Below, piece by piece: positions 444-43,927 of a DNA stretch of 64,000 bases; within the stretch, counting starts at the first letter, position 1, and every line of letters begins with the position of its first letter. Both the position numbers and the translations under genes were made by a program. Under the pieces are notes generated by a model that saw nothing but the letters and a program-made list of their open reading frames with translations, was not told where the DNA came from and ran no database searches. Source of the DNA: Dysidea avara (lineage: Eukaryota > Porifera > Demospongiae > Dictyoceratida > Dysideidae); NCBI RefSeq assembly GCF_963678975.1, contig NC_089274.1, positions 17,191,633 through 17,255,632 of the forward strand, read 5' to 3'.

Positions 444-3400
444 TTGGAAAAAACTCCTTTATAACTTTCTGAGCTTGACATTTTAACTGAATACTTTCTT
501 GCTCACTAAGCCGCTCTCTTTGAGATGTGTCAAACTGTCCCCCAGGCCAAAACAAGTTCCTCAGGTGGTACATGGCCCTACACCACTGTACCTCATCTTC
601 TGTTACTGACAGCAACAAGTCTAGTATATACCCTATGGTGGCATGGTAAATAATGACAGACACCCTTATCTTACCTGTCAAGTTGCTTGCCAAACAAACT
701 TAGCATCCCCAGTTGAAGTCTCTCATTACACAGCCACGGTTCCTTTGTTGTCTTGCTAGTAATCTCTGTGACAAAACAAAAGAGGGCATTAGAGAGGGGA
801 GCCCTTTTCTCTTGTTCTTTAGCTAACAGTGTAACCATCCTGCTAGACACTGGTACAAAACTAGCTTTGAATAAAGTCAGAAGAAACTGGCACACTTGCC
901 AAAACGTTCTCATAAGGTAAGACTTAATACCACGAGAGGGTTGTTTCTGGATGCTTGTAGCAAGTGATTCTGCAAGTAACAATGTGGGTACAGGTGTATG
1001 AGAAGTGGGTGTGGTGGCTGCAGGAGAAGTCAGTGTGGCTGTAGGAGTAGATGCAGCTGTAGGAGAAGTAAGTGTGGCTGAAGGAGCTGCATCAAGTACA
1101 GGAGTAGTAGCAGTACTGGCAGTAGTTGCAAGTGGTGAAATGGTAGAAGAATCAGATAAGTGACTATCAGAAATGTTACTTTTCTTTGGAGCTTCATCTA
1201 CAGCTTCTAATGATTGGTGGTCGGTGTAAAAATGGCGTCGATCACTACTTGCAGTGACACTTGTAAATAGAACACTACTATCTGATGCACTACTTGATCG
1301 TGACCTCAGTGTAGATGGTTTATTGTCAGTCTGTGCTGCACAAGATGTCTCTATGTTCAGAGAAAGAGCAGGCAGTGTTGTGGTGTTGAGTGGCAGGTGA
1401 ATGTACAAGTAGTTGTTGAGCATCTTCTGTAGTGGAGCTCTCCTTGGCTATAACAGCAGAGAACACCAATATGGTTACATGTGATGTCACACGTAAGTGT
1501 CCATATACACTCTGTACAGTTACATACCAGGAGTGCATTGAATCCTATGTTGTATATACTCCATAAACATCAAAATTCAAACATGGCTACCATGTACTAT
1601 AAAAAGTAACTATTAAAATTCCTTATTAGGACACTATATGGAGGAGCATGCTTGAGTGCGTCATGTTACTAGCACAATGAAGCAGAGCTATCGAACAAAG
1701 TTGAATGGCACAACAGAAGAATGATAGCACAGGTGTGGTAAAATTCGTGAGTGATGGGAAATTTATTGCAGTGGGCCATTCCAAGCTGTTCCTTTGACTC
1801 GACCACCTTCCTATCAAAGCAGCTTCACTGCCTTTAAACAAAAATGTAGTAGTGGCCCATTCCATGTACCGTACGGAGGGAAACTTTGGAGGGGGGAAAA
1901 TTTGGCGAATCAAGCAAAATATCAGTTGGCAAAATAAAATTTGGCGAATTGTTAACAAAGCACACACCCTGTTTAATTGATTAGATTACTAATCGCTGTA
2001 CCTGAGGCGAGAACTAGAGTGCCATGCCTCTCAGCGGTTCGGCGCCTGGAGTCACCTACCAACCAAAAGGTAATAATACTATATAGACAGTAGATCTACA
2101 CCCTCTGGAATAGTGAATAATATGGTAGGATTCGCTACTTGTCACGCCCGTTTTGAGGTGAAGTTTGAGGATACCACGTGTATAGTAACTAGCTACCTAG
2201 TGAGGTAATCGAGCAAGGCTTGGCTCTAGCGTAATACCTGGTCCACTATCCCTTGATCAAGTAGAAAATTGATTAGTTCGAGGCTTGGTTTGCTATTTTC
2301 TTCGCCACCAAAATATTTGGATGGGGAAATTTGGCGAATTCATGGTCATTCGCCAAATTTTAACAGCACCAAAGTTTCCCTCCATACAGTATCCCTGTTG
2401 TGTGCAAGAATCATGGAACTAATGTCACTAGCACAAGCTGCCATGTTTGAATTTTGCCCATGATGCTTTAAAAAGTAATGTTTGGAGCTGCATGCTCCCT
2501 TGTCTAAAAGAATTCGATGCACTCCTGCACATACTAAATACACACATGCACAAATTGCAAAACCTGAATAAAAATATATTGATACACATATAAAATTTAT
2601 TGTTTCTTTAAGCCCATTAATTTGTAGCAAAAATGTTTTAAAGTGATGGAGATCGGATTCAACACATACAGACAGTGAAACTTTGTCCCTCAAAATATTT
2701 CTAGCCATACAGTTCCAAGGCTATAGATATGCTTGTATGTATTTCAACACACACCTTAACACTACTGGGCTGCAATCGGGATGATATGGGTTCAGCAGTA
2801 GCAGCCATGTTGCCTGTTACTGCTTCACAGTTAAAATTTAGAGCTTCCTCCCCAATTTCCTCCTCATCAATACAATAATTCTTGTATGCTTCCACTCCCT
2901 CCATCAAGAAATGATGGAACACTCCGCTGCTCCGGATCTCACTTGCCTTCCACAAGTTCTACACAAACAATAAGACAATTGACAACTACGATGAGCAACC
3001 AAGCATGAGTCACTTCACCATCAACTTCACAGCAGGACACTGGCACTTAGCAGTAGCAAAATAATAAAAATAATATGCAACGGTAAACCACCCTCCCTCC
3101 CCCCCTCCAACCATTTGTAAACAGTATGTGTATCAATTCATGGTCACAGCAATAAACAAGTAAATGTCACTGATTAATAGAATTTACCTAATGAGGCCAA
3201 AAAATTATGCTTATAACAAGGCAGCCTTACACCAATGAGGTTGTGTAGAATACACTTTAGGATCTACTTTATTTTCCAACTTATTACAGTGACATGATTA
3301 CACACTTAAGATAACACATACCCTGAGGTACATTTCCAGACCAGTTTTCCTCTCTTCAAGAAGCGGCACATCTCTTTCATCAAACCAAGATGTCACTTTG

Positions 3401-4896
3401 TGGAGAAGGAAGGAAACACTCTTTTTCTCAGGCAGCCTCATACCTGTCATAGACAATCTAAATGCTTTGTGTGATGATGAGCATGTACCTTCAAGAAACC
3501 TGGATAAAGGAGGTTTGTTTAGAGTAGCGTGTAGTTTCTCAAAGCGACTGTATCGCACTAGTGCATGTACCATCTGCTTTGGAGAGTCTTCCACACTAGT
3601 GTTGTCACTCTCATCTATGGCTTTAAGTGGAAACTAGAATAAACACAAAGAAAACTGCAACTGTGACAGATTGAAATACAAAATAGATTACAAAGTAACC
3701 TTTAACAGATATAATAGTTGACTGTTGTATTAAAGTACTTGAATAAGTAGATGCACATTCAAATCAGTATTTGACTATCAGAGCCCACATTAGCAAGCAT
3801 TTCTACCATCAAGTGTAGACAACAATCTTACCTGAATGATGTAGCCAAAATATCCTCCATGCTGGACATATCTCACACTCATGACTGAAACGGGTGACTG
3901 CTTTAAATCGTCAGATTGATCACGTGATGCTTCAAACGAAAGTGTAAGATTACTGCTTTGTGATTGGCTGTTGCTATGATACCCATGAACTGTCCGTCCC
4001 ATGTATGATGCATAACAGTTATGATGCGATAGGTGGTTGTTCTTTCCCAGTTCAGCGTTCTCTGCTTTAATTTGCCGCATTATCAATTCAATTCACTTGG
4101 GATTGGCAGGAGAAAGAAGATGGACAATAGCTTGGTAAAGAAAGTCTGGGTCACATATTCTGTTGATCATAGGAAGCACCACACGACAGGTTAGCACCTC
4201 TCGCACAAACAGACGACCTGCTTCACAATGTTTGTATTTTATTGGCAAGAGTGTGTCAAAAAATAAATCAATTATGTTCTTAATGTGTCGATACTCAGTG
4301 TTATAGCTAACCAGACTGCAGTGTACTGCATCATGGTGTTTTCCTTCAAAGTCTCTAACACATTCAAATCCTTGAACATCAAACTTTTTAACACCATTAG
4401 AGTACTATACAGCACTTTCACTGACTGCCTTTAACTGAGCAGTCACTAGTGGCAACACATCAGCCAATACCTCTTCAATGTTTATAGCACGGCTACGATC
4501 TTCCATCTTGATTGCAAGGTGCTCTAACAGCATGAGAATATCAGAAGGAAACTCAGTGTCATCTGAGATTTCTCTATACCAATAATTGACAAAGTCCTTT
4601 ATTATCAATTGGAAGATTTTCTTTGCCTCTTTCTGGCACAGCTCTTGAGTTCGTGTTGCCTTCTTCTTCAGACCAATTTTAAAGAAAATGGTGAATATTT
4701 CATTAAGGATGCCATCTAGAGTTTCCCGCCATGGACTAGCTCGTTGGTGGAATGCAGTCAGAGACGTCAACTGAGCAGTAAATACGAGGGTAACAAAACA
4801 AACAACCCCAACTCCAGTGTGGATAAAAAACAACACAATCGTAAACAGTGTCACTGGAATGATGAAGACCAGCCATCTTATCTGGGTGTAGTCCAT
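444..4896 (-). pseudogene. Sorting nexin 19-like pseudogene (copy A)
   Basis: Truncated, disabled duplicate of the gene at 31206-35529. The first exon starts at 4896 with a membrane-anchor-like hydrophobic segment and a PXA domain. The PX-domain exon at about 3322-3633 encodes the same residues as copy B, and the Ser/Thr/Ala/Pro-rich linker plus part of the nexin C-terminal domain lie at about 444-1440. Two nonsense codons interrupt the first exon: Gln CAG to TAG at 4405-4407 and Arg CGA to TGA at 4093-4095. A deletion of about 18 bp near 632-640 removes the normal acceptor of the fifth exon; the remaining nearest AG would shift the frame by one base. The last two exons are absent. It is very unlikely to make a full protein; a short PXA-only product is possible. 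The reading rests on direct comparison with copy B. Confidence 0.85.
1869..2389. mobile_element. TIR element with TA target duplication, present only in copy A
   Basis: The ends are inverted repeats about 22 bp long (CGTACGGAGGGAAACTTTGG at the left, its near-complement CCAAAGTTTCCCTCCATACAG at the right, trimmed to its core). The element is flanked by TA at 1867-1868 and 2390-2391. Copy B has a single TA at the matching site, so this is an insertion of about 521 bp. The TA duplication suggests Tc1/mariner-type mobilisation. It has no coding capacity. Further inverted AAATTTGGCGAAT motifs lie inside both ends. Confidence 0.8.
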
Positions 4897-5418
4897 TGCC
4901 GAGCCACTTCCTTTAACAAAAAATAAATAAAAAATCATCAACAATCAGCAAAAAGGATTCTGAGGATATTAAACTTTCATTGTACAAGAATCAACAAACC
5001 TAGGCAGAGTGCATTAAAGTTGGTGTAATGCAATTCAGGCTTTCTTAACTTACACTAATACCATCACAAGGGAACACCATTTAAATCATTTTCAATTGTA
5101 AGATTAAAAATAAAAAATGTAGATCTGATTATTTTTTTTAATAGGATTCTCAATGATTGGAATGGCTTTATACCTGCACTATGTTGTAAATGCTAATTCA
5201 ATTAATTGTTTTAAATCATTGTTAGATTCTCACTTAGCTAATTCTAGATTTATTTTTGTATAGCCATCTTATGATTGTACAAATTTTGTGTTGACCCGCC
5301 TTTACCGGTTATTAATAATACTAATAGATGTGTTGTGACTCACACGATAGTAATTTGTACCTGCTCTCAACACGTTTCACGTCGATTTAACTGAACAGCT
5401 TGCAACCATTGTAAACAG

Positions 5419-5949
5419 TAGTCTGGCGCCGCCCGCCCCTTCGCATGAGTAAGGGTCTGGTATGCTTAGTATCACCATATCTATGGTATCACCGAGTTGT
5501 TCTGGAGGAATTTAATTTGAATGTAATGACGTAACGAAAATGGAAGTGCCTCACCCAAAACTGTGGCAGAGATATTGAACTTTCTTCGCCTTTACACAGG
5601 CGAAAGTGGATTGGTCTACTTTTATAAAATACACATGTCTCCCTACCTAGGAAATCAGAGCGTAACATGGGTTTTTCGCCTATCAAACAAGGCGAAAAGC
5701 CCTTCCCGATATAACACTTTCTTCTCTTTGTTCTTTATTATAGTTAACCCCTTTTGTTTCTTCATGTAATGTTAGGGCGTTTGATTCATTTTTTTGACGT
5801 AACATACACAAAAATGAGCTGATTAAACGTGGAGCGTTTTGATTGGTTGCACCAGTTTTTGGTAATCCGGTACAACTCCACTATACTAAGAATACCAGAC
5901 CTCGTACCAGACCCTTACTCTATGCGAAGTGGCGGGCGGCGCCAGACTA
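5419..5949. mobile_element. TIR element with 9-bp target duplication, present only in copy A
   Basis: A non-autonomous element of 531 bp. Long inverted ends begin TAGTCTGGCGCCGCCCGCC and continue through a shared CTTCGCAT..AGTAAGGGTCTGGTA block. Flanking 9-mers TGTAAACAG (5410-5418) and TGTAAGCAG (5950-5958) differ by one base. Copy B has one uninterrupted TGTAAACAG near 36046, which is the empty site. A 9-bp duplication is most like Mutator-type elements, but the family is not established. The ORFs inside are short and look accidental. Confidence 0.85.
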
Positions 5950-7676
5950 TGTAAGCAGTGCAACGAGAAACCCAACATCACATCACGAGACACGTGCTTC
6001 TAAACTTTCGCGTGACTGAAAATTTCGTGAAGTCTAAATTATTATTTTATTTTATATTCCAATTCAATAAAAATCCACTAGAAAAAAATTCGTTATATAG
6101 TTCTTCATGTGTGATGCATTATAAAGAATAATCCATTTGTGCTACAGTGAATCATTTGAAAGTCTCTTGACATAATTAAACGGTATTAGTCCACGCTGAT
6201 TAGGATTTCCAAAGACATATCCTCGCTTAAAAGAAATAAAATAATTAAACCATGTTTAGTATCCCTCCCATTCTCTTACAAGCCAATCATTGCCGTGCTC
6301 CTTTGTTATGGCTAGCTTATCTCCTTCCTGAAAGGCCAGTTCATCCTTGTTATCTGGAGTACAATCATATAAGGCTTCCACTCGGTACAAGATTTGTGGT
6401 GGCTTTGGTGGAATCTGTGGAGAACTTGATCCATCTGGTACATCAATACTTGGTAAAGCAACACTATTTCTTAGAGTGCCTAAGAGAAGAAAAGAACATA
6501 GTGTTAAAAAGTAGACATGTCTTTTCTTTTACCATCTGATGATAATTTTGGTTTCCGCTTCGGTGGAACAAGAGGAGAAACTCTGTAGAGAAAACATGTG
6601 GCAATAAATCGGATGTTAAATAGACCTGAGTTTTAGTCACTCACTTATTATTAATTGGAATGGCATCCTGGGACTGTGACCGACTTGGAGGGAGTGGAGC
6701 CGACTGTTTGTTCTCTGTGGGCTGTTGCATTTGCTGTTGTTCATCTTTTTGTTTCTCTTCCTGTTTATCATCCTCCTCCTTCTCTTCCCCAATCGTACTG
6801 CATCAACACAGAAGCAAAACATTTGCAAGGGCACATATCAAGTCAGCAAAAAACATCCATTTGTAGTATATTAAAGGAGGTGTCACAAAGTACATTTAAT
6901 TTCGGGAACTATGTGACATGGTCACTAATATGAGGTAATGACAGGATACTAACAACACATATACACAGGTATTTTCCGTACGTTTCAGGACTAGCAGATT
7001 TTGTTCTTTTAAGAGCCAAGTGTGTAGCTGACACTATAGATGGCTGGTTGTAAGTGGAGATTGGCCGTGTTCGAGGAATCTTGCCGAATACATCAGAATG
7101 TCGTAGTACTTCAGGGACTTGATATACTTCATCATCTTCATCAACTCCCCAATCAATATTGACATTGTCACAAACATGTAGCTTCTTCCTTTGAGCATCT
7201 TTAAGCTGCAGATATCATAAGAATATCAATACAACCTGAAATTAGTGTGGATATGCAACACGCGAGTATATAGCTGTGTGTGCGTGCGTGTGTGCGTGCA
7301 TGAGACAGAGAGATAATTCTCTAAAGTGTCTTTTTGACAAGCTCCACTATACAACTTACCAATTCTAAACAGTCGGCAAATTGCTCCTCTTCTTCAACAA
7401 AAGACAATGGAGTCTGTTGTGCTTCATTCTCTATAGGTAGTCAAAAAGAAATTACACACAGGTGTACATGCACACAAACACACAAAGCTAAAAAAGAAAC
7501 CCTCCAGCTGTAATTGTTACAAGGTGATGCCCACCCCTGCAAATTACTGCGATATTCAGAATTAGTGTAGAACTGGGTAAATCCTCCTAAGGAGCTAGTA
7601 ACCCTTAGAAAGCTACATCATGTCTCACAGCTGAAGGTGGGTGGGGGTGTAGGCACATAGAATCCCACTAAGGCAG

Positions 7677-7750
7677 CACACACTCACACGTGCACAAACA
7701 CACACACACGTGCACAAACACACACACACACGTGCACAAACACACACACT
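7677..7750. repeat. CA-rich microsatellite with ACGTGCACAAA units
   Basis: Tandem CACACA tracts are separated by repeated ACGTGCACAAA units in an ankyrin-region intron. Copy B (about 37790-37832) has fewer units, so the tract has changed length since the duplication. Confidence 0.8.
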
Positions 7751-10700
7751 TACCAGCTTCAACATTTGCTCCATTTCTTAACAATATTTTCATACATTCC
7801 AGCATCCCCTGCTGAGTAGCAATGTGTAAAGCAGTGTTCCCTTCACTATCTGTAGCATTCACTGCACGACTGTCAACCACAACACATCAATACACATAAC
7901 AATGATTGGTACGGCTTCACCTATTGGTAGACATAAACTCCACAATGTGTAGGGATGTCAGGTCCTCTTGCTCTACAGCCAAGTGTAGTGCAGTGTATTT
8001 GTCCTCCTACAAGAATACACATGCAATTTCACATATAATTAGAGCACTAAACATTTGAAGTACTGTTCATATACTGTAGTGGTCTTAGATAATTAAGTGT
8101 TGCTATCATCAAAAGCATACTCTACAATGTAGACACCTTGATAACCAGGGGGCCAAGGGACCCAGAAATCAGGACACCTCACTAACATGGACACTCTCAA
8201 GGTGTCTGGAATACATCATTCTGGCAGACCCTTTTATTATCAACACCTTAATAAGTTTCTGTGGTAGTAAGGTCCGGTATTATGCACTAATACAAATGGG
8301 ACCATGAACTGGTGTTCTTATTAGCAAAGTAGTGCCCTCGTTTCATGGATCTAAATCAGAGTGCAGTCATAAGTGACAGGCTAGGGGATTGAAGCTAAGC
8401 TGAGAAGCTTACCCCCCTCAGAAAGATATTGGCTGACATTAAAATACAGAAAACTGAAAAAGAATAACAAGTGAATTACCCTGTTTGGTAATGGCTGAGT
8501 CATATCAACACCCTCAGCGTATGCTTGCAGTAGAGCACGAAAATCTCTAACATCTATAGCTTCATACAACAACTCCAAAGAATCAACAGTTTGACTACGA
8601 TCAATATACTTGCGCTGGACATATTTATTACGAATAAACTGTGCACGCTCTTCAGCATCAGTTTCCTTATTTGGCTTGGAATCAACAAGATTAGCTTCCA
8701 TTACTTCATTAAACAGTTGGTTACTCATAGAATATGCCACTAATAGTTCAAAAGTTTGTAAATCATCGAGGTCCAATGAGCAGATTCATGACACTTGTAC
8801 ACTAAGATTACGATGAATTCCTGAACATTGCAGGCACATTAGCACCCCAAGGTTTACCGATAGCCAAACTGGATCTGTGGTGGTGATATCATATGGTATC
8901 TCTGTTGTTATGGTGACTTAGCCCACCTTTATTGCCACAATCTACACATGATTGGTTGCCAGGCAACTGTTTGATCTTATCAACAATTTTTTTCACCAAC
9001 TCCTTATGTTGCTATACAAACAATAAAGTAAAATGTGGTTAAAGGAATCATGCACAAGTACACCACACACGCACACATGCACACACTAACTTGTTTTGTT
9101 GTGGTACCTATTCCACTCCTACGCCGAGACTAGACAGAGACAAACAGACATCGCATACACATTATACATCATACACCCACCACACGAGTGTGTTCAGTAC
9201 GACCCCCTCCACTAATAAACTTTGCCGTGCAATTGTCCATTGTTGCCTTCCACTCTTTCAGCTCAGCTTCTGTCTCTGCTGCAAACACATACGTTCTTTG
9301 TGCTACAGGGAAACAATATGCACACAATAATACAAACCTAAACTCCAACTCATAAAACTCAAGTCAAACATTATGTTAACCAGATGAGTATGATGCCAAG
9401 AAATTAAGAAATTAAAGTAAGCTCAGAGTTTCACTACTATACGCACAGATATGGACACACACAGTTTAACGTACGTGTAAATAATTCGAAGCAATACTTG
9501 TGTCCATCTTGTTCACCAATGTCATTACATTTAAAATTTAAAGGCGGAACAGCCAAACTTGGGGGATGGGTCTAAATTAAAGGAAAATGTTATGTTTCAA
9601 CAATACTATCATAAATTATAGAAGTATTGAAGTGAATTACATGCAATTAACAAAATAGCAGAAATACTGAAATACTAGCTCACATGACTGTTGGCCATTG
9701 TAAAGCCCATCATATTCGTGGAGCAATATTTCTTCTGCCATGCACGTCTAGCACTGAAATGTTCTACTATAAACCCATTACTAACAACAATGTTCATTCT
9801 CACAATTTAATATTGAGGTTTAGGATGTGGTCTGGTTTTTTGAGCAGGTATCCACTCTTTTCTGTGATGTCGGAAAATGTTGCTGTCTGCGCTTTGTGGT
9901 GTTGTACAACATCACTGCCTTTGAAATGATTTTTTAATCTTTCCTGTGACTCTCGCAGCTTCTTCCGGCATCCTTCCAACTCGGTACGATGCTTGAAATA
10001 CATACGACTAGTGAGATAATAGTTTGAGGAAACCGTATTCATACCTGCTGTACTGTTGCTTCTGCTTTCTCATTCCAGCCCTTAAACAGATCCATCAGTT
10101 TACTGCCCTCCTCAAAGTACCTGAGTACATGTGTGCAAGTACTATTAGCTAAGTTCAGTGGATAACTGCAAACACTTATTTGAGCCTTGGAGAGAGTACA
10201 ACATTCAGAACATAACTGGTGGATTGTCCTGCAATCACTGAAGGTTTGCCCTAGCCATTTTATTAGCCAAATATTAAACCATTCTAAGTATCAAAATTGG
10301 AAAGGATGAAACTAAAAGGTTAGACCTAGCCAACCAAAACAAATCTCACCAAAACCGAAAACTATTTAGGCCATTATTTGGTACTTATAGCAATGCTTCA
10401 CCACATGTAGCCACTTAACACAACATACACTACATACTTTTTCATCGACTTAGAGTAGCCCTGTAGATGCTCAGCAAAATCCACTCCTCTCTTAGACTTC
10501 ACATCCACAACATTCACCATATACTGCACAGCACTAATTAACTTAACAAATAACATCTTTAGTGCCTCACGTCAATGACACGTAGTTGAAAACGTCTTCT
10601 ATCTTCCTCCAGCTGTCCAGCAAGTTCTGCTGGTTGAAATGACTTGTCCTTCCATGGCTGACCAGCTGAACGAAGCTTGGCTCTTTCTTCCCTTTCAACA

Positions 10701-11378
10701 CGATGTCTAACACACACATTACACATTTAATCATGTAAAGATTATAGGAAAAGACCTTATTAACAAGGACATTAGATTTCACTTGCAAAAAAACCTGTTT
10801 CAGCACATTTGAAAAGGCAAAAACTAATTGGAAAAAAGAAGGAAATATAAATTATAGTGGTAATAAATTCTAAAGGGCACATTGTTACAGGGGGATGTAT
10901 CAGAAAACAATACGTACAAATAAGGTATACGTAGCTATGTAAGATAAACTCCCAGGGGAATGGACCCCTAAACTCACTTCGCAGATTCATAGACTGCAAC
11001 ATTCTTGTCAACGTAAGACTTGTACTTGCTCTGTGGAACAACAACAAAACCACCATTATCTCTGTATCAACTACAAGCAAGAGTGTATAATAATATTATT
11101 CACTCTTGCTACAAGGTAGTAGCTAGTCATGCAACATCAATTAACACACATTACAAAAATAAGTCTAAAAGGTCATATAGTAATTAGTTATGTCAACTCA
11201 TATGGGGGTTTACCCATCATCATGTGGAGCACACATGCAACAAGTAGACAATGATACTGGTATATAAACTGCAAATTTGTAGGGCAGGAAAGAGTGAATC
11301 ACAAACACTGCAACAAATGTATTCTGTTACATATACAACAGATTTGTTAAATTGCCATTTGTGATACCACACGTGGAT

Positions 11379-11809
11379 TAGGGCTGAGCGATACTGCCAT
11401 TTTAGTATCACGAACGATACTAAAGCCACTATTCATGATACTGAATAGTTCACGATACTTACAAATAAGTCAATCATAGCTGGTGCTACATAGCATATTG
11501 CTCAGCATTCCTGCAGGAAGTCCTTATAGGTGATAGCAAACTAGCCACTATCATCCTTGTTTACAGCAACAGTTATTGTAACACATGCTTTGAGGTTGTT
11601 ATGGTGTGCACACCTCTCTGCAGGGGAAACCAGATGGGTGGACTTTATCATTTCCAAGGATTCTTAGCCTAGTACTGCATAACAAATGGATTTTGAATGA
11701 CAGTAATGTACAGGCATGGTATCATGATAGTTAATAACAAAATATCGCGATATCGATACTTTCAAAATATCGCGATATATCGCTAAAACGGTAGTATCGC
11801 TCAGCCCTA
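11379..11809. mobile_element. hAT-type MITE with 8-bp target duplication, present only in copy A
   Basis: Perfect 16-bp terminal inverted repeats, TAGGGCTGAGCGATAC and its complement, bound a 431-bp AT-rich non-coding element. The 8-bp direct repeats ACGTGGAT lie at 11371-11378 and 11810-11817. Copy B has a single ACGTGGAT at the homologous site (about 41492-41499). The 8-bp duplication and a TAGGG-start TIR are typical of hAT transposons. Internal runs of CGCGATAT are also inverted. Confidence 0.9.
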
Positions 11810-12033
11810 ACGTGGATACCCATGATCATTGTAATGTGCTTCTGGTGAGGCTATTAATGGTATACATTTCTGCCAATGTATGTATGCTATAGCCCGTTGA
11901 TTCATATTTTGCAGCAATTTAAAAATCTAAGCATGCATATTAAAATGGTAAGACCACAAAAATTTGGTATGTTGAGAAGCCTTTTTTGCCAGTCATGAAA
12001 TATCAAACTTCTCATAGCATAATGCCACAGTGC

Positions 12034-12881
12034 CAGGGGCGGATCCAGGGGGGGGGGGGGGGCTTTGGGGGCTGAAGTCCCCCCCCCCTTCATATTTAGG
12101 CTTTACTTGCTGAGTATTATAATGAAATTTTGTCTTAGCATAATTATATGATCACTAATAATACAAATACTCATAAAACCACCTTATAAACATCTTTCCA
12201 AGGTATTATTAGTGGATTTATGCTAACGTTTATGTAACAAGGACCCGGATCAGCATTGGAGGTGTACAAGATCGAGATACTCTAATAGAGCAGTCAGCTA
12301 ACTACTCTAATAGAACATTCACTGGAAACATGTAGTTGGTTCTGTTATGGAATTTTTCCAAATCTGCCTGCACCTATACATATATACAATGAAGTGCATT
12401 GGTTTGTTTAAAGGGCTTCATTCATCCACTTGTGTAGTTAATATATATGGCAATACTTAATTCAGGTACACAATTTTCATTGAAAATGCTCTCAGATTCA
12501 ATCTTGTATTGTTCAAATTTCAAAATTTTCCACATTCAACATTATATTATTCTAACATGCACATATTCGGTGTTGTGCAATTGTGAGAGGGGTGCATCGT
12601 GTACTTGGTTGTCTGTACCTACCCAAACATTTTGATTAGCAAAATGCTTTAGAAAGCCATACCTATAATCTAAAGGCAGTATATGAAATATCTACAGGCA
12701 GAAAATATTATGAATTTTATGTGGAAATGTTTCCAAATTGCAGTATTTTAGCATCTATTTTTCAAAAATTTCCTGAGGGGGCATGCCCCCAGACCCCCCT
12801 AGTTCCAGCATGCTTCCTCTACCCAACAGATTAGTACCTTGAGTTAGCCCCCCCCTTTTATAAATCCTAGATCCGCCCCTG
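12034..12881. mobile_element. CAGGGGCGGATC-family TIR element, copy 1
   Basis: An 848-bp element with inverted ends CAGGGGCGGATC / GATCCGCCCCTG and G-rich/C-rich subterminal runs. It is flanked by 5-bp direct repeats AGTGC (12029-12033 and 12882-12886). Copy B holds one AGTGC with no insertion. A near-identical second copy lies at 19222-20080. An internal 62-codon ORF is present in both copies but resembles nothing I recognise, so the element is probably non-autonomous. Five-base target duplications at both sites help define the family. Confidence 0.88.
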
Positions 12882-13628
12882 AGTGCTACCGGTTGTTAAT
12901 GGCTAGAGCCAAATTTGAGTATGCACAACACATATAATCACACATATTTGTGCTAAAATAATACTAGGAACCAGTAACACGAGCTTTACCATGTCCAATA
13001 AACCTGTTATTGTAATATATGGCTGTTCATCATGTACACTTGTATTGTAGCAATAGATCTACTAACGAACTGAAAACCTTTTTGGAAAAAGACCCCACAA
13101 TGGTGCTTCATGTAACGATATATACTAATTAGACTATTCGCAGGGCTCTGTGATACCAAGCGTACTAAAGGGCTCAACAAGTACATCCAGTCTTGGACAT
13201 ATAACAACAACACTGAATCACTGAATATATTAAAATATATATATCTAGGTCCCAAACTGTGCATTATACAGAGAGTGCAGATGTGTGTTATATATACAGT
13301 TACATTACTCTGACTGAAGGGCTGCTTATCATCCATAAACCCAACAGCCATTATAAACATTTGGGCTAAACAAGTCTGACATAATACAACAAAAGTGCAA
13401 CACATATAATATTACTGTATAGTAATTTAATTCAATCGTGTAAAGTTTCAAAGGTAGAAAAATTACAAATTGTTGGTACTGAATAGTTAGCTATGTACAG
13501 GCACTGACAATTGAGGAATGAATAGAGTGACAGTCACAAATACCTCAACCTCATACAGTAGTACATGGTATTATAAAATTTGAATCTCAACTGGCTTCCC
13601 ATTTGCCTACAATGGCAATATTACATGC

Positions 13629-29235: not shown

Positions 29236-29579
29236 GCTTTCTTAGGTTTTTTGTCTAAGTTTTTTTAAATGCGTGTGACTGCCGGCACTATATAACTTGC
29301 TAAACTTTACCAGTTAGGCACTGGAGGGTGTACACAGAAGGCAGAGACTATTCGAGGTGTTTGCCCATAGCCTAGGAGCCTAAGCAAAAATCTTTGAGTT
29401 AAATATCCTAAAGTGAAAAGGGACAAATATCTAGAAGGGCTGAAAAAAGCCAACCCCATCGTGACTTGATCTGCAGGCCACCCAGATTCCGGGCTCGGAG
29501 CCAACCTTGGGGAGGCCAAGATAATTACTGCTGGGGTAGCTAGCAGCTTTAAGTGACTAAAGCCGGAAACCCTTCAACA

Positions 29580-31205: not shown

Positions 31206-34200
31206 TTATAATACACATGTTCTGTGAAGCAGTAACTGATCAGTAAATTGTGACTGTGTGATCTCTGGTACCATCCTAGCAATCACCACATCCAAAACTT
31301 TGTAAAAAATGTGTCTACAAAGAGTGGTATGAGATTATAAATAAAAATATATATATATTTCACCTTACCTGTTGAGTCGAGGATTCTCCAAGCAAGCTAG
31401 AAAGAGTTGTATTGATTTGTCATAATCTTCCTGACCAAGTAGGGAACCAAAAAAATCTGTAAGAAATAAAATTCATCTGAGAAACTATATGTGGTCTGTG
31501 GTGTGTAATTCCATATACAGTACCTGCAATCCTGCATGCGCATGCATGCATGTCTGTGTGTAGTGTAGTGTATACCACTCACTTGGAAAGAACTCCTTTA
31601 TAACTTTCTGAGCTTGACATTTCAACTGAATACTTTCCTGTTCACTAAGCCGCTCTCTTTGAGATGTGTCAAACTGTCCCCCAGGCCAAAACAAGTTCCT
31701 CAGGTGGTACATGGCCCTACACCACTGTACCTCATCTTCTGTTACAGACAGCAACAAGTCTAGTATATACCTAAACAAAACATTGAAATATGGTGGCATG
31801 GTAAATGACAGACACCCTTATCTTACCTGTCAAGTTGCTTGCCAAACAAACTTAGCATCCCTAGTTGAAGTCTCTCATTACACAACCACGGTTCCTTTGT
31901 TGTCTTGCTAGTAATCTCTGTGACAAAACAAAAGAGGGCATTAGAGAGGGGAGCTCTTTTGTCTTGTTCTTTAGCCAACAGTGTAACCATCCTGCTAGAC
32001 ACTGGTACAAAACTAGCCTTGAATAAAGTCAGAAGAAACTGGCACATTTGCCAAAACGTTCTCGTAAGGTAAGACTTAATACCACGAGAGGGTTGTTTCT
32101 GGTTGCTTGTAGCAGGTGATTCTGCAAGTAACAATGTGGGTACAGCTGTATGAGAAGTGGGTGTGGTGGCTACAGGAGAAGTCGGTGTGGTGGCTGTATG
32201 AGAAGTCGGTGTGGTGGCTGCAGGAGAAGTGGGTGCGGCTGTAGAAGTAGACGCAGCTGTAGAAGTAAGTGTGGCTGAAGGAGCTGCATCAAGTACAGGA
32301 GTAGTAGCAGTACTGGCAGTAGTTGCAAGTGGTGAAATGGTAGAAGAATCAGATAAATGACTATCAGAAACATTACTTTTCTTTGGAGCTTCATCTACAG
32401 CTTCTAATGATTGGTGGTCGGTGTAAAAATGGCGTCGATCACTACTTGCAGTGACACTTGTAAATAGAACACTAGTATCTGATGCACTACTTGATCGTGA
32501 CCTCAGTGTAGATGGTTTACTGTCACTCTGTGCTGCACAAGATGTCTCTATGTTCAGAGAAAGAGCAGGCAATGTTGTGGTATTGAGTGGCAGGTGAATG
32601 TACAAGTAGTTGTTGAGCATCTTCTGTAGTGGAGCTCTCTTTGGCTACAATAGCAGAGAACACCAATATGGTTACATGTGATGTCACACGTAAGTGTCCA
32701 TATAAACTCTGTACAGTTACATACCAGGAGTGCATCGAATCCTATGTTGCATATACTCCATAAACATCAAAATTCAAACATGGCTGCCATGTACTATAAA
32801 ATATATAGAGGAGCATGCTTAAGTACGTCATGTTACTGGCACAATGAAGCAAAGCTATGAAACAAAGTTGAATGGCACAACAGAAGAATGGTAGCACAGG
32901 CATGGCAAGATTCGTGAGTGATGGGAAATTTATTGCAGTGGGCTATTCCAAGCTGTTCCTTTGACTCAACTACCTTCCTATCAAAGCAGCTTCACTGCCT
33001 TCATACAAAAATGCAGTAGTGGCCCATTCCAGTATCCGCAAGAATGATGGAACTAATGTCACTAGCACAAGATGCCATGTTTGAATTTTGCCCATGATGC
33101 TTAAAAAGTAGTGTTTGGAGCTGCATTCTCCCTTGTCCAAAGAATTCGATGTGCTCCTGCACATACTAAATACAGCACATGCACAAGTTGCAAAACCTGA
33201 ATAAAAATGTACTGATACACATATAAACTTTATTGTTTCTTTAAGCCCATTAAATTGTAGCAAAAATGTTTTAAAGTGATGGAGATCAGATTCAACACAT
33301 ACAGACAGTGAAACTTTGTCCCTCAAAATATTTCTAGCCATACAGTCCCAAGGCTATAGATATGCTTATATTTATTTCAACACACACCTTAACACTACTG
33401 GGCTGCAATGGGGATAATATGGGTCCAGCAGTAGCAGCCATATTGCCTGTTACTGCTTCACAGTTAAAATTTAGAGCTTCCTCCCCAATTTCCTCCTCAT
33501 CAATACAATAATTCTTGTATGCTTCCACTCCCTCCATCAAGAAATGACGGAACACTCCGCTGCTCCGGATCTCACTTGCCTTCCACAAGTTCTACACAAG
33601 CAATAAGACAATTGACAACTACGATGAGCAACCAAGCATGAGTCACTTCACCATCAACTTCACAGCAGGACACTGGCACTTAGCAGTAGCAAAATAATAA
33701 AAATAATATGCAACGGTAAACCACCCTCCCTCCCCCCCTCCAACCATTTGTAAACAGTATGTGTATCAATTCATGGTCACAGCAATAAACAAGTAAATGT
33801 CACTGATTAATAGAATTTACCTAATGAGGCCAAAAAATTATGCTTATAACAAGGCAGCCTTACACCAATGAGGTTGTGTAGAATACACTTTAGGATCTAC
33901 TTTATTTTCCAACTTATTACAGTGACATAATTACACACTTAAGATAACACATACCCTGAGGTACATTTCCAGACCAGTTTTCCTCTCTTCAAGAAGCGGC
34001 ACATCTCTTTCATCAAACCAAGATGTCACTTTGTGGAGAAGGAAGGAAACACTCTTTTTCTCAGGCAGCCTCATACCTGTCATAGACAATCTAAATGCTT
34101 TGTGTGATGATGAGCATGTACCTTCAAGAAACCTGGATAAAGGAGGTTTGTTTAGAGTAGCGTGTAGTTTCTCAAAGCGACTGTATCGCACTAGTGCATG

Positions 34201-35529
34201 TACCATCTGCTTTGGAGAGTCTTCCACACTAGTGTTGTCACTCTCATCTATGGCTTCAAGTGGAAACTAGAATAAACACAAAGAAAACTGCAACTGTGAC
34301 AGATTGAAATACAAAATAGATTACAAAGTAACCTTTAACAGATATAATAGTTGACTGTTGTATTAAAGTACTTGAATAAGTAGATGCACATTCAAATCAG
34401 TATTTGACTATCAGAGCCCACATTAGCAAGCATTTCTACCATCAAGTGTAGACAACAATCTTACCTGAATGATGTAGCCAAAATATCCTCCATGCTGGAC
34501 ATATCTCACACTCATGACTGAAACGGGTGACTGCTTTAAATCGTCAGATTGATCACGTGATGCTTCAAACGAAAGTGTAAGATTACTGCTTTGTGATTGG
34601 CTGTTGCTATGATACCCATGAACTGTCCGTCCCATGTATGATGCATAACAGTTATGATGTGATAGGTGGTTGTTCTTTCCCAGTTCAGTGTTCTCTGCTT
34701 TAATTTGCCGCATTATCAATTCAATTCGCTTGGGATTGGCAGGAGAAAGAAGATGGACAATAGCTTGGTAAAGAAAGTCTGGGTCACATATTCTGTTGAT
34801 CATAGGAAGCACCACACGACAGGTTAGCACCTCTCGCACAAACAGACGACCTGCTTCACAATGTTTGTATTTTATTGGCAAGAGTGTGTCAAAAAATAAA
34901 TCAATTATGGTCTTAATGTGTCGATACTCAGTGTTATAGCTAACCAGACTGCAGTGTACTGCATCATGGTGTTTTCCTTCAAAGTCTCTAACACATTCAA
35001 ATCCTTGAACATCAAACTTTTTAACACCATTAGAGTACTGTACAGCACTTTCACTGACTGCCTTTAACTGAGCAGTCACTAGTGGCAACACATCAGCCAA
35101 TACCTCTTCAATGTTTATAGCACGGCTACGATCTTCCATCTTGATTGCAAGGTGCTCTAACAGCATGAGAATATCAGAAGGAAACTCAGTGTCATCTGAG
35201 ATTTCTCTATACCAATAATTGACAAAGTCCTTTATTATCAATTGGAAGATTTTCTTTGCCTCTTTCTGGCACAGCTCTTGAGTTCGTGTTGCCTTCTTCT
35301 TCAGACCAATTTTAAAGAAAATGGTGAATATTTCATTAAGGATGCCATCTAGAATTTCCCGCCATGGACTAGCTCGTTGGTGGAATGCAGTCAGAGACGT
35401 CAACTGAGCAGTAAATATGAGGGTAAAAAAACAAACAACCCCAACTCCAGTGTGGATAAAAAACAACACAATCGTAAACAGTGTCACTGGAATGATGAAG
35501 ACCAGCCATCTTATCTGGGTGTAGTCCAT
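31206..35529 (-). CDS. SNX19: Sorting nexin 19-like protein (complete, copy B)
   Basis: Seven exons give about 927 residues: 34465-35529, 33955-34266, 33388-33591, 31827-32644, 31583-31770, 31369-31456, 31206-31314. All junctions are GT-AG and in phase. Order: a hydrophobic N-terminal segment (about residues 6-45); a PXA domain with NYWYREISDD; a PX domain (RYSRFEKLHATL, later EERKTGLEMYLR); a long Ser/Thr/Ala/Pro linker; and a nexin C-terminal domain containing LFWPGG and LENPRLNRHIFYKVLDVVI. There is no RGS domain between PXA and PX, which separates SNX19 from SNX13, 14 and 25. The family sits on endosome/ER membranes and binds phosphoinositides through PX. The start at 35529 is chosen because upstream in-frame sequence looks like an intron ending TTTTTTGTTAAAG. 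Human SNX19 is close in length (992 residues). It lies tail-first next to ASAP on the same strand. Confidence 0.9.
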
Positions 35530-38500
35530 TGCCGAGCCACTACCTTTAACAAAAAATAAATAAAAATCATCTACAACAATCAGCAAAAAGGATTCTGAGG
35601 ATACTTAAACTTTCGTTGTACAAGGATCAACAAACCTAGGCAGAGTGCATTAAAGTTGGTGTAATGCAATTCAGGCTTTCTTAACTTACACTAATACCAT
35701 CACAAGGGAACACCATTTAAATCATTTTCAATTGTAAGATTAAAAATAAAAAATGTAGATCTGATTATTTTTTTTAATAGGATTCTCAATGATTGGAATG
35801 GCTTTATACCTGCACTATGTTGTAAATGCTAATTCAATTAATTGTTTTAAATCATTGTTAGATTCTCACTTAGCTAATTCTAGATTTATTTTTGTATAGC
35901 CATCTTATGATTGTACAAATTGTGTTGACCCGCCTTTACCGGTAATTAATAATACCAATAGATGTGTTGTGACTCACACGATAGTAATTTGTACCTGCTC
36001 TCAACACGTTTCACGTCGATTTAACTGAACAGCTTGCAACCATTGTAAACAGTGCAACGAGAAACCCAACACCACCTCACGAGACACGTGCTTCTAAACT
36101 TTCGCGTGACTGAAAATTTCGTGAAGTCTAAATTATTATTTTATTTATTCCAATTCAATAAAAATCCACTAGAAAAAAATTCGTTATATAGTTCTTCATG
36201 TGTGATGCATTATAAAGAATAATCCATTTGTGCTACAGTGAATCATTTGAAAGTCTCTTGACATAATTAAACGGTATTAGTCCACGCTGATTAGGATTTC
36301 CAAAGACATATCCTCGCTGAAAAGAAATAAAATAATTAAACCATGTTTAGTATCCCTCCCATTCTCTTACAAGCCAATCATTGCCGTGCTCCTTTGTTAT
36401 GGCTAGCTTATCTCCTTCCTGAAAGGCCAGTTCATCCTTGTTATCTGGAGTACAATCATATAAGGCTTCCACTCGGTACAAGATTTGTGGTGGCTTTGGT
36501 GGAATCTGTGGAGAACTTGATCCATCTGGTACATCAATACTTGGTATAGCAACACTATTTCTTAGAGTGCCTAAGGGAAGAAAAGAACATAGTGTTAAAA
36601 AGTAGACATGTCTTTTAAACTAAGCTTTTACCATCTGATGATAATTTTGGTTTCCGCTTCGGTGGAACAAGAGGAGAAACTCTGCGGAGAAAACATGTGG
36701 CAATAAATCGGATGTTAAGTAGACCTGAGTTTTAGTCACTCACTTATTATTAATTGGAATGGCATCCTGGGACTGTGACCGACTTGGAGGGAGTGGAGCC
36801 GACTGTTTGTTCTCTGTGGGCTGTTGCATTTGCTGTTGTTCATCTTTTTGTTTCTCTTCCTGTTTATCATCCTCCTCCTTCTCTTCCCCAATCATACTGC
36901 ATCAACACAGAAGCAAAACATATGCAAGGGCACATATCAAGTCAGCAAAAAACATCCATTTGTAGTATATTAAAGGAGGTGTCACAAAGTACATTTAATT
37001 TTGGGAACTATGTGACATGGTCACTAATATGAGGTAATGACAGGATACTAACAACACATATACACAGGTGTTTGCCGTACGTTTCAGGACTAGCAGATTT
37101 TGTTCTTTTAAGAGCCAAGTGTGTAGCTGACACTATAGATGGCTGGTTGTAAGTGGAGATTGGCCGCGTTCGAGGAATCTTGCCGAATACATCAGAATGT
37201 CGTAGAACTTCAGGGACTTGATATACTTCATCATCTTCATCAACTCCCCAATCAATATTGACATTGTCACAAACATGTAGCTTCTTCCTTTGAGCATCTT
37301 TAAGCTGCAGATATCATAAGAATATCAATACAACCTGAAATTAGTGTGGATATGCAACACACAAGTATATAGCTGTGTGTGCGTGCGTGTGTGCGTGCAT
37401 GAGACAGAGAGATAATTCTCTAAAGTGTCTTTTTGACAAGCTCCACTATACAACTTACCAATTCTAAACAGTCGGCAAATTGCTCCTCTTCTTCAACAAA
37501 AGACAATGGAGTCTGTTGTGCTTCATTCTCTATAGGTAGCCAAAAAGAAATTACACACAGGTGTACATGCACACAAACACACAAAGCTAAAAAAGAAACC
37601 CTCCAGCTGTAATTGTTACAAGGTGATGCCCACCCCTGCAAGTTACTGCGATATTCAGAATTAGTGTAGAACTGGGTAAATCCTCCTAAGGAGCTAGTAA
37701 CCCTTAGAAAGCTACATCATGTCTCACAGCTGAAGGTGGGTGGGGGTGTAGGCACATAGAATCCCACTAAAGCAGCACACACTCACACATGCACAAACAC
37801 ACACACACACACACGTGCACAAACACACACACTTACCAGCTTCAACATTTGCTCCATTTCTTAACAATATTTTCATACATTCCAGCATCCCCTGCTGAGT
37901 AGCAATGTGTAAAGCAGTGTTCCCTTCACTATCTGTAGCATTCACTGCACGACTGTCAACCACAACACATCAATACACATAACAATGATTGGTACGGCTT
38001 CACCTATTGGTAGACATAAACTCCACAATGTGTAGGGATGTCAGGTCCTCTTGCTCTACAGCCAAGTGTAGTGCAGTGTATTTGTCCTCCTACAAGAATA
38101 CACATGCAATTTCACATATAATTAGAGCACTAAACATTTGAAGTACTCTAATATAAGGTTCATATACTGTAGTGGTCTTAGATAATTAAGTGTTGCTATC
38201 ATCAAAAGCATACTCTACAATGTAGACACCTTGATAACCAGGGGGCCAAGGGACCCAGAAATCAGGACACCTCACTAACATGGACACTCTCAAGGTGTCT
38301 GGAATACATCATTCTGGCAGACCCTTTTTATTATCAACACCTTAATAAGTTTCTGTGGTAGTAAGGTCCGGGATTATGCACTAATACAAATGGGACGATG
38401 AACTGGTGTTCTTATTAGCAAAGTAGTGCTCTCGTTTCATGGATCTAAATCAGAGTGCAGTCATAAGTGACAGGCTAGGGGATTGAAGCTAAGATGAGAA

Positions 38501-41500
38501 GCTTAGCCCCCCCCCCCCCCCTCAGAAAGATATTGGCTGACATTAAAATACAGAAAACTGAAAAAGAATAACAAGTGAATTACCCTGTTTGGTAATGGCT
38601 GAGTCATATCAACACCCTCAGCGTATGCTTGCAGTAGAGCACGAAAATCTCTAACATCTATAGCTTCATACAACAACTCCAAAGAATCAACAGTTTGACT
38701 ACGATCAATATACTTGCGCTGGACATATTTATTACGAATAAACTGTGCACGCTCTTCAGCATCAGTTTCCTTATTTGGCTTGGAATCAACAAGATTAGCT
38801 TCCATTACTTCATTAAACAGTTGGTTACTCATAGAATATGCCACTAATAGTTCAAAAGTTTGTAAATCATCGAGGTCCAATGAGCGGATTCGTGACACTT
38901 GTACACTAAGATTACGATGAATTCCTGAACATTGCAGGCACATTAGCACCCCGAGGTTTACTGATAGCCAAACTGGATCTGTGGTGGTGATATCATATGG
39001 TATCTCAGTTGTTATGGTGACTTAGCCCACCTTTATTGCCACAATCTACACATGATTGGTTGCCAGGCAACTGTTTGATCTTATCAACAATTTTTTTCAC
39101 CAACTCCTTACGTTGCTATACAAACAATAAAGTAAAACGTGGTTAAAGGAATCATGCACAAGTACACCACACACGCACACATGCACACACTAACCTGTTT
39201 TGTTGTGGTACCTATTCCACTCCTACGCCGAGACTAGACAGAGACAAACAGACATCGCATACACATTATACATCATACACCCACCACACGAGTGTGTTCA
39301 GTACGACCCCCTCCACTAATAAACTTTGCCATGCAATTGTCCATTGTTGCCTTCCACTCTTTCAGCTCAGCTTCTGTCTCTGCTGCAAACACATACGTTC
39401 TTTGTGCTACAGGGAAACAATATGCACACAATAATACAAACCTAAACTCCAACTCATAAAACTCAAGTCAAACATTATGTTAACCAGATGAGTATGATGC
39501 CAAGAAATTAAGAAATTAAAGTAAGCTCAGAGTTCCACTACTATACGCACAGATATGGACACACACAGTTTAACGTACGTGTAAATAATTCGAAGCAATA
39601 CTTGTGTACATCTTGTTCACCAATGTCATTACATTTAAAATTTAAAGGCGGAACAGCCAAACTTGGGGGATGGGTCTAAATTAAAGGAAAATGTTATGTT
39701 TCAACAATACTATCATAAATTATAGAAGTATTGAAGTGAATTACATGCAATTAACAAAATAGCAGAAATACTGAAATACTAGCTCACATGACTGTTGGCC
39801 ATTGTAAAGCCCATCATATTCGTGGAGCAATATTTCTTCTGCCATGCACGTCTAGCACTGAAATGTTCTACTATAAACCCATTACTAACAACAATGTTCA
39901 TCCTCACAATTTAATATTGAGGTTTAGGATGTGGTCTGGTTTTTTGAGCAGGTATCCACTCTTTTCTGTGATGTCGGAAAATGTTGCTGTCTGCGCTTTG
40001 TGGTGTTGTACAACATCACTGCCTTTGAAATGATTTTTTAATCTTTCCTGTGACTCTCGCAGCTTCTTCCGGCATCCTTCCAACTCGGTACGATGCTTGA
40101 AATACATACGACTAGTGAGATAATAGTTTGAGGAAACCGTATTCATACCTGCTGTACTGTTGCTTCTGTTTTCTCATTCCAGCCCTTAAACAGATCCATC
40201 AGTTTACTGCCCTCCTCAAAGTACCTGAGTACATGTGTGCAAGTACTATTAGCTAAGTTCAGTGGATAACTGCAAACACTTATTTGAGCCTTGGAGAGAG
40301 TACAACATTCAGAACATAACTGGTGGATTGTCCTGCAATCACTGAAGATTTGCCCTAGCCATTTTATTAGCCAAATATTAAACCATTCTAAGTATCAAAA
40401 TTGGAAAGGATGAAACTAAAAGGTTAGACCTAGCCAACAAAAACAAATCTCACCAAAACTGAAAACTATTTATGCCATTATTTGGTACTTATAGCAATGC
40501 TTCACCACATGTAGCCACTTAACACAACATACACTACATACTTTTTCATCGACTTAGAGTAGCCCTGTAGATGCTCAGCAAAATCCACTCCTCTCTTAGA
40601 CTTCACATCCACAACTTTCACCATATACTGCACAGCACTAATTAACTTAACAAATAACATCTTTAGTGCCTCACGTCAATGACACGTAGTTGAAAACGTC
40701 TTCTATCTTCCTCCAGCTGTCCAGCAAGTTCTGCTGGTTGAAATGACTTGTCCTTCCATGGCTGACCAGCTGAACGAAGCTTGGCTCTTTCTTCCCTTTC
40801 AACACGATGTCTAGCACACACATTACACATTTAATCACGTAAAGATTATAGGAAAAGACCTTATTAACAAGGACATTAGATTTCACTTGCAAAAAAACCT
40901 GTTTCAGCACATTTGAAAGGGCAAAAACTAATTGGAAAAAAGAAGGAATTATAAATTATAGTGGTAATAAATTCTAAAGGGCACATTGTTACAGGGGGAT
41001 GTATCAGAAAACAATACGTACAAATAAGGTATACGTAGCTATGTAAGATAAACTCCCAGGGGAATGGACCCCTAAACTCACTTCGCAGATTCATAGACTG
41101 CAACATTCTTGTCAACGTAAGACTTGTACTTGCTCTGTGGAACAACAACAAAACCACCATTATCTCTGTATCAACTACAAGCAAGAGTGTATAATAATAT
41201 TATTCACTCTTGCTACAAGTAGTAGCTAGTCATGTACAAACAATTTACTCTGCAACATCAATTAACACACATTACAAAAATATGTCTAAAAGGTCATATA
41301 GTAATTAGTTATGTCAACTCATATGGGGGTTTCCCCATCATCATGTGGAGCACACATGCAACAAGTAGACAATGATACTGGTATATAAACTGCAAATTTG
41401 TAGGGCAGGAAAGAGTGAATCACAAACACTGCAACAAATGTATTCTGTTACATATACAACAGATTTGTTAAATTGCCATTTGTGATACCACACGTGGATA

Positions 41501-43927
41501 TCCATGATCATTGTAACGTGTTTCTGGTGAGGCTATTAATGGTATACACTTCTGCCAATGTACGTATGCTATAGCCCATTGATTCATATTTTGCAGCAAT
41601 TTAAAAATCTAAGCATGCATATTAAAATGGTAAGACCACAAAAATTTGGTATGTTGAGAAGCCTTTTTTGCCAGTCATGAAATATCAAAACTTCTCATAG
41701 CATAATGCCACAGTGCTACCAGTTGTTAATGGCTAGAGCCAAATTTGAGTATACACAACATATGTGACCGGATTTGCGAAAAGGTACCTTTTCCACACAT
41801 TTTACATGCCAGCAAACAAAATGATGTAACAATTGACCCTGTACACTGATTAACTTGCTCTTAGTATCAAAACACAGCCAAATACTGTAGCTACACTCAT
41901 GGAAAATTTCAGCAAATTATATGACATGATCAAAAAGTTATGAAGCTTCAATGTTCAAAAAATGGGTCAAATTTTGTGTGTGAAAAAGGTACCTTTTTGC
42001 AAATCCGGTCACATATATAATCTCACATATTTGTGCTAAAATAATACTAGGAACCAGTAACACGAGCTTTACCATGTCCAATAAACCTGTTATTGTAATA
42101 TATGGCTGTTCATCATGTACACTTGTATTGTGGCAATAGATCTACTAACGTACTGAAAACCTTTTTGGAAAAAGACCCCACAATGGTGCTTCATGTAACG
42201 ATATATACTAATTAGACTATTCGCAGGGCTCTGTGATACCAAGCGTACTAAAGGGCTCAACAAGTACATCCAGTCTTGGACATATAACAACAACACCGAA
42301 TCACTGAATATATTAAAAAATATATATCTAGGTCCCAAACTGTGCATCATACAGAGAGTGCAGATGTGTGTTATATATACAGTTACATTATTCTGACTGA
42401 AGGGCTGCTTATCATCCATAAACCCAACAGCCATTATAAACATCTGGGCATACAACAAAAGTGCAACACATATAATATTACTGTATAGTAATTTAATTCA
42501 ATCGTGTAAAGTTTCAAAGGTAGAAAAATTACAAATTGTTGGTACTGAATAGTTAGCTATGTACAGGCACTGACAATTGAGGAATGAACAGAGTGATAGT
42601 CACAAATACCTCAACCTCATACAGTAGTACATGGTATTACAAAATTTGAATCTCAACTGGCTTCCCATTTGCCTACAACGGCAATATTACATGCTACCAT
42701 ATAGCTGGTTATTTTCAAACCAGAAATTTTCGCAGGAACAGTAAAATCTGAAGTTCGAAGGTTTTAATTTCGAAGAATGCATATTTTGTGGATTTCAAGC
42801 AAATAGACAAAAAAATACGTAGTCTACGTGTGCTTGCCTTACTGATGGAGTCGAGGACGGAATAATCCCCACTTTTGCACACTAGAAAGAAGACTGAGTT
42901 ATAGTATAAGTGGAGTAATAACAGTAGTTAGCAGCCACTGGTGAGGCAATCGTCAGCTAGATCAGGGTACAGCAGCAGACAGCATGGATTCCCAACAACG
43001 GCCATTCTGGATAGTCTACTGGCTGAGTAATGATACTGTTTAACTGTTAATAATACTGAGCTTAAATCTGTAAAGAATAGCTACATGAGCGAATACGTGT
43101 TCGACAACGTGAAAGCACGTTATTTTTACTTGTGGGAATTTATTTTCGAAGAACAACAGGATTTGGGAATTATTTTTGAAGAGAATTAAGGACCTCTTCG
43201 AAACATCTGAAAATAAAAACCCTTCGAAAATGGGCGTCACTATTCAGTGGACTGGACTACTGGACTGACATATTTTTGGTTTTTGCACATTCTATGGTTG
43301 GATTTACGGAGTCTTGCTAGTAAGAACTCTTTGGGCACCTGCAGCCCACTTCTAAACGCTTCTAAACACTGAAGACAAACAGTGGAATATGCGAAAAATG
43401 TCTAATAACAACTATTGATGTCATGTGAAACCACTATATGTGGTTACACCAACATTATCTTCTCAATAACCATCAGACAATAGCAGCAAAACCCTTCACA
43501 TAGAGTGTATATGGCTTACCCCATGGAGGTCTGTGTCTATTACCAGGTTCAGTGAAGCCAGTAGAACATTCTTCATAGAGTTTACCTGCAGGGAATCCCC
43601 TAAAGAGTGTTACCATGGCAATGGTGCACTTACCATATCTCCAGTTAGTGAGGAAACTTGCTACAAGGTGACAAAAGAGTTATATTTTTTAAAGTCTCTA
43701 AGTGTCTGTAATGGCATGTGCGTGTGTGTGTATGTGTGTGTAGTTTACATAATCGGGACTCCGCATCACTGAACACAATAGCAATTGATAGGTTGAATAT
43801 AACTATGCACTGAAACGTGTCATGTAGGTCAATGTATGCATGTGCAAATGGATACAATAGCTATACACATACGTACAATCAGCAACCAAATTGCCATATC
43901 AGCCCCCAAGACACCCCAAATAGCTAT
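31575..43927. repeat. Segmental duplication, copy B (direct repeat of 436-15921)
   Basis: The matching unit to copy A. Its flanks continue into the same genes on both sides: the last two SNX19 exons to the left and the N-terminal ASAP exons to the right. This marks B as the original locus. It carries one TIR element lacking in A (41763-42013) and lacks five that A carries. Confidence 0.92.

Follow-up and report, generated by a model that had tools for sequence, protein, structure and literature searches.

Transposon insertions that distinguish two direct copies of a gene-bearing block in the sponge Dysidea avara

When a DNA element is present in one copy of a duplicated block and absent from the other, did it enter the first or leave the second, and how does its arrival relate to the duplication? 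This question is raised by a locus in a window of 64,000 nucleotides of the sponge Dysidea avara (NCBI RefSeq assembly GCF_963678975.1, contig NC_089274.1; C3:17191633-17255632 in our numbering, in a genome of 550.8 Mb in 108 contigs). Self-BLAST over the window and 30 kb of sequence to its left and right (124 kb, free of N) delimited two copies in direct orientation, now ~15 kb apart. Copy A (about -1093..15923, + strand, starting upstream of the window) contains an SNX-like and an ASAP-like gene, both on the - strand and both broken; copy B (31212..43925, + strand) has an open frame at the codons that are stops in A. Five elements, designated E2 to E6, are well supported as insertions that occurred after the A and B sequences separated. 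A sixth, E1, is doubtful.

Five insertions and their empty sites

The junctions were read in the sequence itself. For each element, a predicted empty site was assembled from the adjoining 12 bp to the left and right and a single target site duplication (TSD), and was scored by edit distance to the other copy. The predicted sites of E2, E3, E4, and E5 differed from B by 0, 1, 1, and 1 edits, respectively, that of E6 differed from A by 3, and that of E1 differed from B by 8. The sequence-only reading had listed six insertions with uninterrupted empty sites and exact target duplications; E2-E6 (0-3 edits) stand as insertions, and the element at 1869-2389 (8 edits) does not stand with them.

Copy A holds four of the five, all given on the + strand. 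E2 (5419..5949) is 531 bp long with 28-nt inverted ends and a 9-bp TSD at 5410-5418 and 5950-5958. Its right TSD at 5950, TGTAAGCAG, differs from TGTAAACAG by one substitution. E3 (11379..11809, 431 bp) has the ends TAGGGCTGAGCGATA and an 8-bp TSD at 11371-11378 and 11810-11817, which makes it hAT-like by TSD. E4 (12034..12881, 848 bp) has the ends CAGGGGCGGATCC and the 5-bp TSD AGTGC at 12029-12033 and 12882-12886, and is hAT5-like by TSD length. E5 (13628..13987, 360 bp) ends in CATAGGCGGCGG and CCGCCGCTG and is flanked by an 8-bp TSD at 13620-13627 and 13988-13995. This duplication is best read as 8 bp, ATTACATG, and not 9, the ninth base being readable as the first base of the element in a chance match to the next genomic base. 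In copy B, E6 (41763..42013, + strand) measures 251 bp, has 40-nt inverted ends (95%, a few flanking bases included), and is flanked by TA at 41761-41762 and 42014-42015. At the target site of E6, A has CA in place of TA.

The TSD length is a property of each family and not a product of chance. Copies in duplicated pairs were tallied separately. Of 29 other E2 copies, 25 had an exact 9-bp TSD, 2 had one mismatch, and 2 had more; none was exact at 10 bp. Other E3 copies had an exact 8-bp TSD in 26 of 29 cases and two mismatches in 3, with none exact at 9 bp. In cross-paired controls, a match with at most one mismatch occurred in 2 of 812 pairings for E2 and 4 of 812 for E3. With the 8-bp boundary, E5 has an exact TSD in A and in two of three other full-length copies. 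A 5-bp TSD flanks both E4 copies whose flanks were read (AGTGC at 12029 and CCGTT at 19222-20080), a TA duplication flanks E6 in B and the one relative fetched, and TA stands on both sides of all seven other E1 copies.

The five supported elements are members of five multicopy families resembling miniature inverted-repeat transposable elements (MITEs). The genome search for each element scored 40 of 472 to 2524 candidates, so that copy numbers are lower bounds, and many full-length copies of each of E1-E6 were found among the 40. Inverted arms measured 44 nt in E1, 28 in E2, 28 in E3, 16 in E4, and 40 in E6, some including a few flanking bases; for E5, no end-to-end inverted pair was reported and the ends match by eye only.

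The approach is a known one. Related empty sites serve as evidence for MITE insertion between paralogous segments, and here too a TSD-flanked element in one copy faces an uninterrupted target in the other. Nothing at this locus differs in kind, save that two blocks found only in A look like losses from B and one site is unclean. Mutator-like element (MULE) MITEs have a 9-bp TSD, and E2, a candidate member, shares with them a fixed 9-bp TSD and inverted ends. E1 and E6 may be Tc1/mariner-type or other TA-target MITEs and, like these, are flanked by TA. TA TSDs are described in Harbinger-related elements as well, hence outside Tc1/mariner, and a 5-bp TSD for hAT5 (PMC12730594). E3, E4, and E5 resemble hAT-superfamily MITEs, hAT5 included, in the 8-bp TSD of E3 and, less surely, of E5, the 5-bp TSD of E4, and the inverted ends of E3 and E4; the likeness is one of TSD and ends. 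A literature search with the terminal letters of the elements returned nothing transposon-related by title and abstract start.

E1 and other blocks present only in copy A

E1 (1869..2389, + strand) is 521 bp long, TA-flanked, found in A only, and has 44-nt inverted ends (84% complementary, TA included). Its status is doubtful, and loss from B is as good an explanation as insertion in A, or a better one. That E1 did enter A at a TA we regard as possible, if somewhat doubtful. TA lies on either side, a feature shared by all 7 other family copies, and the breakpoints coincide with the ends of E1. Set against this, the predicted empty site is 8 edits over 26 bp away from what B has: the T preceding the TA is missing, as are about 9-10 bp immediately following the TA, and B therefore does not offer an exact, uninterrupted target. 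The CCAGTATCC in B can also be understood as two CA dinucleotides joined together, one lying outside the end of E1 and the other within it. The 20 private changes of E1 in 516 bases, an upper limit, exceed half the divergence of the copies on this side of the block (about 2.2% per lineage). No single exact deletion junction that gives the B sequence was found (15 bp on the left, 8 or 15 bp on the right), so that loss is a reading and not a proof, and a separate 9-10 bp difference beside E1 is required under insertion and loss alike.

Two further length differences above 200 bp in favor of A were absent from the earlier list: 14691-15393 (703 bp) and ~1.1 kb upstream of 437. The 703-bp block lies almost wholly inside E7 (14528..15386, + strand, ~859 bp), a member of a fold-back element family that is full-length in A and reduced in B to a stump of ~165 bp of its left part, from 43245 to 43394-43400, after which the flank follows. 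All 39 other places scored for this family (40 scored of 1168, one being A) begin at query base 28 or earlier and reach base 819 or beyond, out of 859. Since the other copies are full-length, A is the complete copy and B the stump, and the 703-bp difference looks like a loss in B rather than an insertion in A. The ~1.1-kb block, at about -750 to 420, reaches beyond the start of the window. A search with 691 of its bases gave 39 other scored places that were 72-77% similar, and it contains an old, divergent copy of a ~595-bp repeat. At this similarity, the block probably predates the A/B split and was lost from B. A block found only in A is not automatically an insertion in A: of the eight size differences that exceed 200 bp, two resemble losses from B and one is unsettled.

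Timing of the insertions and competing explanations

Divergence between A and B was counted from A 437 on, leaving out -1093..436, of which -1093..-844 has 86% identity where alignable (self-BLAST). The copies show 188 differences over 11,980 aligned bases, distributed unevenly. At a change point at A 2810 / B 33443, divergence falls from 78/1802 (4.3%) on the left to 110/10178 (1.1%) on the right. This split gained 38.9 in log-likelihood, and the maximum in 200 shuffles was 6.9 (every tenth split tried). A second step at A 15674 (gain 8.9) is ascribed to the ragged right end, and a step on the left side at A 1589 (gain 5.9) lies inside the shuffle range. Constraint was considered as a cause of the low divergence and judged unlikely; the similar side has long stretches outside the open reading frames (ORFs) supported by Pfam. 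We infer that gene conversion or a mosaic of haplotypes produced the two levels. Interlocus gene conversion likewise changes paralog identity abruptly within one alignment (PMC4467073). Here, the similar side extends over ~13 kb, and conversion is one reading only. The mosaic means that A and B have no one single age. E1 falls in the divergent part and E2-E6 fall in the similar part, so element age tracks how old the duplication is locally.

The sequence-only reading had proposed comparing divergence within families, and the search with each element shows the E2-E6 copies to be little diverged and the E1 copy to stand out. Among the 40 scored places, the nearest full-length relatives had identities, gaps counted and rounded, of 89%, 90%, 99%, 98%, 95%, and 100% for E1 to E6, respectively, and E2 had one partial match (query 59-468) at 95%. 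Private substitutions, gaps ignored, numbered 4/499 in E2 (29 relatives), 2/431 in E3 (29), 2/350 in E5 (4, one partial), and 1/837 in E4 (two relatives), and E6 differed from its nearest copy at 1/251. An old age for E2 and E5, suggested by the raw BLAST values of 90% and 95%, was dropped once substitutions were counted without gaps; E1 stays old-looking, with 20/516 (7 relatives) against a pooled 8/1280 for E2, E3, and E5 (Fisher p = 3e-6). Another copy of the E1 family, used as a control query, had full-length neighbors at up to 97%. The E1 family is therefore not uniformly old, and the copy at 1869-2389 is the odd one. The low private counts of E2-E6 fit the ~0.5% per lineage found right of A 2810 (98/9921 up to A 15674).

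We reconstruct the order of events from the observed structure, TSDs, empty sites, family membership, and relative divergence. A block with the SNX-like and ASAP-like genes would have been duplicated in direct orientation, and copy A would have lost function. After the separation of A and B, four non-autonomous DNA elements of four families (E2-E5) would have entered A and one of a fifth family (E6) would have entered B. Insertion would have been by cut-and-paste, with the staggered cut filled in to give target duplications of 9, 8, 5, 8, and 2 bp, and the transposases were presumably supplied in trans. E1, situated where the duplication is older or was left unhomogenised, would be an insertion of greater age or, on a slightly better reading, an element that B has lost, and E7 would predate the separation and have been shortened in B. 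We consider this account as a whole, comprising duplication, decay of A, and ordinary insertion of E2-E6, to be probable. The result is ordinary transposition between paralogs, a known kind of event.

Several points weigh against this account. The comparison has no outgroup, so substitutions and indels are unpolarised. The private counts are upper limits that rest on few relatives for E1 (7), E5 (4), E4 (2), and E6 (1). A matching TSD is missing in 2 of 29 E2 copies and 1 of 3 E5 copies, and 3 of 29 E3 copies have two mismatches. The target of E6 is a TA only, and A has CA there. Small insertion ages are equally expected if the elements were allelic presence/absence differences between two haplotypes.

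In a competing explanation, the polymorphism was inherited: the duplication joined two haplotypes, and the elements had inserted earlier in one allele. Consistent with this, the pooled private changes of E2-E6 (10/2368, against ~12 expected by our arithmetic at the split age of the right side) are not clearly younger than the split, and the 4.3% / 1.1% mosaic resembles recombining haplotypes. Presence in one copy dates an insertion to after the last shared ancestor of the two sequences; that point may have been a divergence of alleles ahead of the duplication, or the most recent gene conversion. The element ages do not discriminate between insertion after the duplication itself and insertion after an earlier split between alleles. 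The proposal that at least five families were active after the duplication accordingly holds for five families after separation of the A and B sequences, and the duplication itself was over-read as the reference point. Two conserved genes of A have three nonsense changes between them, which is easier to reconcile with a redundant copy than with one allele at a single-copy locus, and on balance we find inherited polymorphism unlikely.

The insertion load had been called strongly skewed to the pseudogene copy, which the counts do not bear out: five of six elements lie in A (binomial p = 0.22, two-sided), or four of five without E1. For size differences above 200 bp, A is the longer copy in seven of eight (sign test by hand, p = 0.07). 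A further reading is that the working copy B is kept lean, gaining fewer elements and shedding old ones (part of E7, the ~1.1 kb, perhaps E1), and that the dead copy A retains its elements and accumulates more; we rate this as quite improbable. Similar duplications elsewhere in the genome make the skew testable genome-wide. Among 67 loci fetched for other reasons (L002-L008 and L015-L074, the window's own E2 and E3 loci included), three pairs (L034/L035, L048/L051, and L053/L072) are intrachromosomal segmental duplications, 98.5-99% identical, with an E2 or E3 copy in common. The bases adjoining the element are identical within each pair, and these pairs are examples of elements older than their duplication. 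The locus is ordinary genome evolution, a clean, small natural experiment that dates MITE activity against a duplication, with the mosaic divergence as one modest lead.

Two explanations survive poorly. A and B could be two haplotypes of one locus that the assembler misplaced side by side, as divergence of 1-4% with presence/absence of transposable elements is typical of heterozygous haplotypes. We judge this highly improbable. Homology stops at both ends, the sequences following A and B and those preceding them being unmatched save for short repeats across the 124 kb. A 2.56-kb core of B gave long matches to A and B only (among 40 scored of 158 candidates), and the other 38 were short and lay within the first ~134 bases of the query. 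Removal of E2-E5 from B by precise excision or recombination between TSD copies is scarcely credible, because, even though B did lose part of E7 and probably the ~1.1 kb upstream of 437, it would need four independent footprint-free losses.

Genes and surroundings of the duplicated block

We infer the gene names SNX and ASAP from domain matches in B. The putative sorting-nexin-like gene, on the - strand, has a PXA domain (E 9.8e-33) with weak PX and weak Nexin_C matches, both below the curated cut-off. Its PXA-domain ORF (34423..35604, - strand) had no PDB match at E 0.01. The putative ASAP-like gene, also on the - strand, has an ArfGAP domain (E 4.5e-26) with Ank and SH3 matches above the cut-off and a weak PH match below it, and the best PDB match of its ArfGAP ORF (38503..39021, - strand) was PYK2-associated protein beta. 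A codon-by-codon comparison of A with B gave 9 synonymous and 26 non-synonymous changes, stops included, in 10 of 12 stretches, the two stretches with gaps in B being left out of the counts; the units compared were stop-to-stop ORFs, not verified exons. Of the three nonsense changes in the A counterparts, two fall in the PXA ORF and the third falls in the ArfGAP ORF, all where B is open, as judged within the compared ORFs. The description of A as the pseudogene copy is borne out.

The spacer holds the closest scored relative of E4 (19222..20080, + strand), to the right of E4 in the same orientation and with its own 5-bp TSD, CCGTT. It lies about 6.3-7 kb from E4 and is 98% identical, the next relative being 97% identical (40 scored of 2524 candidates). 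At the 18 sites that vary among the three copies, 9 single out the next relative, 8 the copy at 19222, and 1 E4. By our arithmetic, random placement in 550 Mb would put the nearest relative ~7 kb away about 3 times in 100,000. Chance proximity being this unlikely, the pair suggests a local hop.

Publications that we found on empty sites, on gene conversion, and on insertion between paralogous copies do not describe this locus in title or abstract start, and Rfam at gathering scores gave no match within the window. A dispersed repeat lies inside B at 35678-35960, with 80-89% matches across the genome (9.9-kb query). Copy A ends on the right just where a repeat begins (15918-16614), an inverted copy of which lies ~5 kb away at 21427-22119. 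This repeat may have had a role in the duplication breakpoint.

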